Shown here: positions 1 to 47,220 of the stretch, piece after piece
How positions within the stretch are numbered: the first letter of the stretch is position 1
Layout: every line of letters begins with the position of its first letter
Origin: Chitinophaga pinensis
GTDB lineage: Bacteria; Bacteroidota; Bacteroidia; Chitinophagales; CAMDFR01
Length of the DNA stretch: 64,000 bases
Assembly (NCBI GenBank): GCA_945860705.1
Contig: CAMART010000005.1
Span: forward strand, 1-64,000
Reading direction: 5' to 3'
Notes under the pieces: generated by a model
Told to the model about the DNA's origin: nothing
Databases searched by the model: none
What the model saw: the letters and a program-made list of their open reading frames with translations, nothing else
Translations under genes and position numbers: made by a program

Positions 1-867
<867 letters not shown>

Positions 868-1033
868 TTAATTATTAGAATTAGCCAAAGGCTAAGAACT
901 GATGATTTAGTTGGATTAACCCCGTAATATCAATCTTATTTTGGTTTAGACCAAAATCTAGAGTGCTATATGCCGTCGTTACAGCTGTACAGAACAATTT
1001 ATTGGGCTGTTATAGATGTACGAACGGTATATT

Positions 1034-1098
1034 ACTATTTTTTTCAATAATGTAATTTATTGAAATACAAATAGTTTAACGAGCAGCATTTATGCTGC
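1034..1098. repeat. Two-hairpin intergenic element, copy 1
   Basis: A long A/T-rich stem (arms starting ACTATTT and ending AAATAGT, 1034-1075) is followed 7 bases later by a perfect hairpin GCAGCATTTATGCTGC (1083-1098) and then TTTTAGGGTTTT. The same architecture, with different but still complementary stem bases, occurs at 47135-47205. It ends directly at the stop codon of the thioredoxin-like gene, so it may also serve as that gene's 3' end structure. Confidence 0.55.
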
Positions 1099-1100
1099 TT

Positions 1101-1598
1101 TTAGGGTTTTACTGCCTCTATCAGTTCTTTTTTTAGTTTTTCTCCAGTCCAATCTTGCACATTCGTAGCCTTGTATACTACCTCTTGCTCTTTATTGATA
1201 AGGTATGAAGTAGGAAATGTGTGGATGCCTATTTCTTGTAAAGAGGTATTTATATGGTAAATTTTCATTGGTAATGCAGTATTATTTTTATAGTTTTTTA
1301 AGATTTCTACTGGTTCATCAGAAATCAAAATCATCTCTATTCCTTCACGTTGAAATGCGCCGTAAAGTATTGCTAATTCTGGCATTTCTTTTTTACAATC
1401 GATACACCAAGTGCCAAAAAAATTGATAAATACAGGTTTTTGTATTTGATTCCAGTCTATAGGATTATTGTCTAAATCTGTAAGTGAGAGATTGGGGAAA
1501 GTGATTTTTGGAGCAATATTGTATTTTTTGTATTGATAAAAAGCAATAAAGATTGAAAGTATAATCAAGATTCCAGTAATGATGTTGTTTTTATTCAT
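1101..1598 (-). CDS. Membrane-anchored TlpA/ResA-like thioredoxin
   Basis: A 165-residue thioredoxin-fold protein, probably held on the outer face of the inner membrane by one N-terminal segment (about residues 6-22) with the redox domain in the periplasm. The active site is W64-C65-I-D-C68, and the cis-proline loop FPTSYL (Pro129) is present, as in TlpA/ResA proteins that reduce or oxidise apocytochromes and other periplasmic thiols. The phrase FFGTWCIDCKKEMPEL is typical of the AhpC/TSA-TlpA group. No cytochrome maturation gene is nearby, so the substrate cannot be told. It lies 80 bases downstream of sodA, separated by a strong terminator, and is probably transcribed separately. Confidence 0.85.
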   Translation of the reverse strand: MNKNNIITGILIILSIFIAFYQYKKYNIAPKITFPNLSLTDLDNNPIDWNQIQKPVFINFFGTWCIDCKKEMPELAILYGAFQREGIEMILISDEPVEILKNYKNNTALPMKIYHINTSLQEIGIHTFPTSYLINKEQEVVYKATNVQDWTGEKLKKELIEAVKP

Positions 1599-46766: not shown

Positions 46767-46799
46767 ACAAATATACTAAATACAGATATCAATCCGCAA
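46767..46799 (-). promoter_or_regulatory. Promoter of the DUF4143 ATPase gene
   Basis: Minus strand: TTG at 46797-46799, 21 bases, then TATATTTGT at 46767-46775. Both elements fit the Bacteroidota consensus. The -33 TTG lies inside a 15-bp copy (46790-46804) of the arm of the adjacent palindrome, so the same sequence may be a regulator site. Confidence 0.65.
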
Positions 46800-46855
46800 T
46801 ATTTATACAAATTTTACGATTCAATCCGCAATATTTAGCTAAATATTGCGGATTG
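46790..46855. promoter_or_regulatory. 34-bp perfect palindrome plus an extra half-site
   Basis: The sequence at 46822-46855 is a perfect palindrome with arms CAATCCGCAATATTTAG / CTAAATATTGCGGATTG. A third half-site, CAATCCGCAATATTT, lies at 46790-46804 in the same orientation as the left arm. It probably forms an operator of the DUF4143 gene, or a recombination or insertion site. A related TAAATATTGTGGTTGG is found near 51764-51783. Confidence 0.7.
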
Positions 46856-46860
46856 GCAAG

Positions 46861-47220
46861 TGAAGATTATTATTAGGAGCTTTTTCCTGCTTCCCGAAGG
46901 TTCGGGACGCTTGTATCTTTGCTTACTGCGTAGCAGAGGATACCGCTTCTATCAGGGCTAATAAAAAATCGCACATATTTTTTACTATACATTGAAATGC
47001 TGAGGTAGGAAGCATCTTTGCTCCTCAATCTGTCGCTCGGCTCCAGCCGAGTGACTTTTATTATTAACCCAAATTATGCGATAGGATTTGAGGGACGAGA
47101 ATTCTAGCGTGTTAATTGGGTTTATCCCGTATTAGTGTTTGTTTTAATAAATTTTAATTTATTGAAATACAAACACTTTGACCATTCAGCATTTCTACTG
47201 CTGAATTTGGGATTTTTGCT
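46861..47220. repeat. Composite of structured intergenic repeat elements
   Basis: On the minus strand 46870-46972 reads ATTAGCCCTGATAGAAGCGG ... GATACAAGCG ... GAAGCAGGA ... CTCCTAAT, with possible stems ATTAG/CTAAT, CCTG/CAGG, GTATC/GATAC, CTGC/GCAG and CCCGAA/TTCGGG, like a branched structured RNA. It is followed by a hairpin with arms CTCGGCT / AGCCGAG near 47037-47057 and a second copy of the two-hairpin element (47135-47205). The mixture recalls repeats I remember from many Flavobacteriia intergenic regions. Confidence 0.55.
47135..47205. repeat. Two-hairpin intergenic element, copy 2
   Basis: Stem GTGTTTGT / ACAAACAC (47135-47176) then, 8 bases later, TTCAGCA / TGCTGAA (47185-47205). 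It shares AATTTATTGAAATACAAA with copy 1 at 1034-1098, but the stem ends differ by paired changes. Confidence 0.6.

Follow-up and report, generated by a model that had tools for sequence, protein, structure and literature searches.

Structured miniature elements are already known among bacteria, and several of them resemble the element described below by description, with no homology shown to bcr1, ERIC, CIR or the MITEs of P. gingivalis. The bcr1 repeats of the Bacillus cereus group are intergenic and multicopy, 147-167 bp long, with a conserved predicted structure (PMC2267715), are regarded as MITE-like (PMC3446304), and have a mobility tied to a TTTAT motif (PMC6542083), which is also found among the targets of our element; they differ in belonging to another phylum, the comparison made here covering size, predicted structure and target motif. 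ERIC (IRU) is also a mobile intergenic repeat, having 7 bp terminal inverted repeats, a target site duplication and stem-loop transcripts, and the account in PMC2229807 describes TA ends for it, in contrast to the 5-bp NTWAN repeats and CCC/GGG ends of our element, for which ERIC membership was thus rejected. The CIR repeats of Caulobacter and Brucella share the plan of 5' and 3' long stem-loops, as two arms and a linker, but are depicted in the same account with TA ends and GANTC motifs and without a terminal inverted repeat (PMC2229807). In the same phylum as our element, P. gingivalis harbors the MITE-like BrickBuilt, 464/PgRS, MITE293 and MITE700; according to PMC4596501, BrickBuilt is wholly intergenic and carries IS5-family ISPg-like ends and 23-nt tandem repeats, whereas our element has no such tandem repeats. 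The REP/RAYT repeats, reported as 20-40 bp palindromes tagged GTAG/CGTC (PMC3733652), were discarded because our element measures 142-157 bp, with CCC/GGG ends and a 5-bp duplication. An integron attC origin was likewise set aside, as no tandem cassette array occurs in the 43 stretches read and the copies are scattered over many contigs. Regarding Tn3, its ends are about 38 bp long and start with GGGG, and the TIMEs derived from it have a 5-bp target site duplication. These TIMEs are, as our element appears to be, non-autonomous miniature transposons (PMC4133298, PMC13367494), but our element has no Tn3-type ends. Among open-licence papers, no published description was found for this Bacteroidota group, and the element apparently represents a family not described before, of a kind already known, whose fold is more strongly conserved than a MITE requires.

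In the window, the whole stretch of 64,000 nucleotides analysed here, the first-pass annotation had reported two distant copies of a two-hairpin element, at 1034-1098 and 47135-47205. Both are present as written, sharing an 18-mer at 1054-1071 and 47156-47173, and the four stem pairs and the 7- and 8-base spacers were confirmed in both copies. An alignment that included the flanks shows that each of them forms the 3' half of a longer, dispersed repeat, which measures 142-157 bp where nothing interrupts it and runs from CCCAAATTA to TTTGGG. The full element has the order CCCAAATT..TTGGG, a 5-base NTWAN linker and CCC..GGG, and 5-bp direct repeats of the form NTWAN flank it, before the 5' CCC and after the 3' GGG. 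In domain I the strand forms one long hairpin with CCCAA/TTGGG as its closing stem; domain II, on the 3' side, is a CCC/GGG-closed three-way junction that includes stems 1 and 2. Copy 2 (47068-47211) is whole, and copy 1 spans 862-1106, split by another repeat. Their features are given below, where R1 is a covariance model built from copy 2 among others, partly from copies of its own genome, and A2 is a structure-blind MAFFT alignment:

857 to 861, no strand: left target repeat of copy 1 (TTTAA), from the sequence.
862 to 926, plus strand: copy 1 from domain I through the linker into domain II (GCCAAATTAATTATTAG...TTGGATTAACCCCGTA); R1 match 862-1006, 36 bits.
927 to 1029, plus strand: insertion of a second repeat family within copy 1, seemingly with a flanking TA at each end (925-926, 1030-1031).
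1030 to 1106, plus strand: rest of domain II of copy 1, including stem 1, which starts at 1034, and stem 2, which ends at 1098; R1 match 973-1104, 31.7 bits.
1107 to 1111, no strand: right target repeat of copy 1 (TTTTA), from the sequence.
47063 to 47067, no strand: left target repeat of copy 2 (ATTAA), from the sequence; three of its five bases agree with ATTTT on the right side.
47068 to 47211, plus strand: whole element, copy 2; R1 match 156.2 bits, model positions 1-144; alignment A2; fold z -5.25.
47068 to 47120, plus strand: domain I of copy 2, the CCCAA...TTGGG long hairpin; A2 columns 2-67, helices 1 and 2.
47121 to 47125, plus strand: linker of copy 2, TTTAT (5-base NTWAN, between GGG and CCC), from the linker tally.
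47126 to 47211, plus strand: domain II of copy 2, the CCC/GGG three-way junction with stem 1 (P5) and stem 2 (P6); helices 3-7.
47212 to 47216, no strand: right target repeat of copy 2 (ATTTT), from the sequence.

Copy 1 has the start of the enolase gene (1-801) on one side and a thioredoxin-like gene (1101-1598) on the other. Its 3' end overlaps, at 1101-1106, the last codon and stop of this minus-strand gene, so that the insertion supplies the end of the gene. In a tree that left out L173 and to which copy 1 was added with its parts joined, the two window copies fall in different subfamilies, copy 1 with elements of genomes G026 and G038 and copy 2 with most copies of its own genome; the support for copy 1 beside the G026 copies is only 89/89, on a long branch. 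The repeat that splits copy 1 (927-1029) also folds (z -4.4) and has five further matches in the genome, at C2:36525, C32:22630, C2:151023, C2:151603 and C1:230328, the last one partial. It comprises ATACC...GGTAT units with an apparent TA target and has a comparable layout, with two folded units next to each other, and three of its six matches sit within copies of the first element, where it also splits the copies at C2:36446-36694 and C2:150882 (loci L044 and L047).

The element is a multicopy one, as its core 16-mer, TTTATTGAAATACAAA, is found at 13 exact places in the 2.94 Mb genome, and at 83 places with up to two mismatches vs 33 for the reversed pattern. BLAST and the covariance model together define 21 loci, comprising 17 uninterrupted, one decayed (C6:59890) and three split (C2:150882, C2:36446-36694 and C5:862-1106), all three by the second repeat family; R1 lists 48 matches in this genome at E <= 1, the remainder overlapping the 21 loci. 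The covariance-model search of the genome and other Bacteroidota, suggested by the first-pass annotation as a check, also detected the element at E <= 0.001 in 8 of the 396 genomes of the order: its own, four of one genus (G006, G026, G038 and G050), G011 from another family, and G017 and G177, each with a weak single match. A diverged element is thereby present in four genomes of a second family and one of a third within the same order, and none of the three same-genus genomes matches R1, a patchy distribution that fits a mobile element. Same-site copies are common to G006 and G050 (L082/L083, L088/L089), indicating that some copies were inherited. Several copies lie within about 1,000 bases of contig ends (C5, C10, C31 and C32 of G026; C51 of G050; C26 of G006), as expected of repeats that break assemblies. 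No match was found in phages or by the pattern scan of IMG/VR, and among plasmids two Ligilactobacillus records matched over 28% of the query, which was judged to be chance.

Regarding mobility, the flanks of 34 elements were reduced to 28 distinct pairs, after dropping repeated flank pairs and two with a cut right flank. Identical 5-bp flanks occur in 14 of these 28 pairs vs a shuffled mean of 2.8, and base agreement reaches 123/140 vs 89.6, the observed values being attained by none of 5000 shuffles of the right flanks, a procedure that ignores the kinship of the copies; repeat lengths of 4, 6, 7 and 8 do not stand out. In the 17 uninterrupted copies of the genome, positions 1 and 3 of the duplication agree on both sides in all cases. 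Because shuffling ignores kinship, the sites were tested directly in the three same-genus genomes, where the joined flanks of eight copies were searched with one repeat kept. In the sister species G002, four of the eight joined pairs, including that of L036, match across the junction, and the sites of L046, L035 and L041 are continuous without the element (BLAST of the joined flanks, 71-74% identity), the exact join being less certain for L041, whose junction lies in low-complexity sequence. These uninterrupted orthologous sites indicate that the element is an insertion in its own lineage, with a 5-bp target duplication as in a MITE.

The remaining MITE features are also present. The consensus outer ends are CCCAAATTACGCAATAG and, inverted, CCCAAATTCAGCATTAG, as tallied in those elements (33 of 43) with a linker of the expected pattern, and both fit one pattern, with 14 forward and 14 reverse matches in G000 and none for the reversed control, hence a terminal inverted repeat, despite the two ends of a single copy agreeing on average at only 11.5 of 17 positions. 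In these 33 elements the linker is mostly of the NTWAN form, being TTTAT in 12, TTTAA in nine and other sequences in 12, and itself resembles the target sequence. Moreover, the element is short (142-157 bp), multicopy (21 loci), non-coding and intergenic, as 42 of the 43 elements overlap no ORF of at least 90 aa. The outer ends are alike yet are paired elsewhere in the domain fold, as expected for a transposase reading duplex DNA. Single-sequence folds also show the outermost bases in a different pairing.

Taken together, we consider the element to be a non-autonomous, MITE-like transposon moved by a transposase in trans, with a probability of roughly three in four. In such a mechanism, the transposase would bind the outer ends as duplex DNA, make 5-bp staggered cuts and paste the element between genes. 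The plus strand would then fold, either once transcribed or while present as single-stranded DNA in the course of replication or transposition, and this fold may be necessary for spreading or for harmless residence, in which case stems would change in pairs and tips would accept mainly new palindromes. Regarding the partner, which would be expected to have the ends CCCAAATTnnnCnnTAG, the exact 5'-end pattern occurs at 16 places in the genome, all known element copies, with no autonomous partner among them. The both-ends pattern in six genomes led to 20 regions with paired or unpaired ends, in which the elements were whole, decayed or had suffered deletions, or nothing could be recognised. Multicopy insertion sequences tend to drop out of draft assemblies. 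Since IS1380/piggyBac-type transposons have CCC ends and TTAA-like targets, a derivation from IS1380 (PF13701), the only transposase family searched for, was considered and rejected, as this domain has no match in the own genome and is absent from five of the seven carriers; it matches in the other two, one above the cut-off. An insertion preference beside terminator-like hairpins is not claimed either: one is found within 70 bp of 8 of the 17 own copies vs 78 of 600 random intergenic points, but of only 3 of 26 copies in the relatives.

Ordinary MITEs need only their ends, so transposase binding alone does not explain the strong conservation of the inner helices, which may have been kept because movement requires a folded strand, because a transcript is functional, or because mutation corrects palindromes. 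Each strand of each window copy folds better than 200 of 200 shuffles (z -5.0 to -6.7). In A2, which holds 29 of 34 elements (L083 and L089, as near-copies, and L096, L097 and L103, with long inserts, were left out), the 41 pairs are standard in 90.4% of cells vs 81.8% when shuffled and 30-45% when slid, the latter contrast being favoured by a structure drawn partly from single folds of the same rows. Double changes affect 21 pairs vs 12.3 in shuffles, and the covariation score is 0.260 vs 0.107; none of 500 shuffles reaches any of the five measures, a contrast inflated by kinship of the rows, to which two of the measures (pair or type counts) are less prone. Helix 4 is the weakest, with 66.4% standard pairs. 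Thus, complementarity is kept in the other copies, as the compensatory changes noticed at the outset had implied, and whole stems are replaced with pairing kept across bacterial families. What does not stand is the reading as a two-hairpin RNA unit, since the part first described is half of an element that is mobile, carries repeats at its termini and duplicates 5 bp of target. The resemblance of two AT-rich hairpins by chance, conceivable in a region that is AT-rich and stem-rich, has practically no probability left, being refuted by the 13 exact core copies, the 21 loci and the covariation.

The mispairs point to the strand involved. G.T exceeds A.C both in A2 (48 vs 13 cells; 21 vs 8 pair-types, binomial p 0.012) and in A3, the alignment fitted to the model (77 vs 26 cells; 30 vs 16 pair-types, binomial p 0.027), suggesting that one strand folds. 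In addition, the plus strand is more stable than the other in 42 of 43 elements as RNA and in 38 of 43 as DNA, and both observations give moderate support to a folding of one strand.

This strand-biased fold, as well as the covariation, would be expected from a dispersed functional RNA, such as an sRNA or an mRNA-end element, spread by old mobility and now kept for its role in a transcript, e.g., in protection from or processing by RNase. Published structured repeats are indeed transcribed, as described for the bcr repeats, found within mRNA in 84 of 165 and 62 of 155 copies of two B. cereus strains (PMC3446304). We consider this possibility rather unlikely, because the orientation of the 17 own copies to their neighbour genes is random (5/5/4/3), which argues against a fixed place in transcripts, and the element is missing from the same-genus genomes, with empty sites in G002. 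The comparison with Rfam that had been proposed was also negative, with no match to Rfam 15 in the window and five below-threshold matches to unrelated families in six loci.

In several copies (L094, L095/L134, L100, L101, L108/L126, L121, L131, L137, L097, L167, L172 and L096), the hairpin tips or the linker are swapped for, or extended by, other palindromes, e.g., CCCGTACGTACGGG and CCCGCACGTGCGGG, and the same palindromes recur at different places in different copies. Such exchanges are compatible with selection for pairing as well as with fold-back mutation, in which palindrome template switching would copy one arm onto the other, producing double changes in a single step and keeping the pairing of an otherwise ordinary MITE with palindromic insides. 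The replacement of whole tips by near-perfect palindromes at several places (CCCGTACGTACGGG, CCCGCACGTGCGGG, GTCCCGAAACTTCGGGAC) is what template switching would produce; however, more G.T than A.C mispairs are not what the copying of arms would give, and such copying would erase a conserved unequal feature, the extra unpaired TA in TTGTTTCAA/TTGAAATACAA. As both features fit selection better, an origin of the pairing by mutation is unlikely. The selection for structure claimed at first is therefore favoured by the mispair excess, but this bias is modest and palindrome-correcting mutation persists as a rival.

It is quite improbable, in our estimation, that the fold itself is the mobility signal, i.e., that the substrate is a folded single strand (ssDNA or RNA) with two helical domains, each ending in CCC/GGG beside a 5-base NTWAN and being separately movable or losable. 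The hints are two examples only, one in which domain I stands alone with TTTAA on each side (L168, G006:C10:69550-69614) and one in which domain II does so with TTAAA on each side (L165, G038:C108:34879-34963); a search for further lone domains gave nothing convincing. Hairpin-reading Y1 systems are not known to leave a target duplication, so, if true, this would be a small structured element using a shape-reading pathway that, unlike Y1, does leave one. Returning to the MITE-like transposon moved in trans, it adds a repeat family with its annotation, together with a covariance model, to what is available for a group of Bacteroidota, and lets the question of why small bacterial repeats conserve their fold be tested through covariation, strand bias and assays of transposition. 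Besides both families, the window contains another small palindromic repeat at 46790-46855, made of tandem and inverted CAATCCGCAATATTTA units with 17-nt perfect arms and no spacer.
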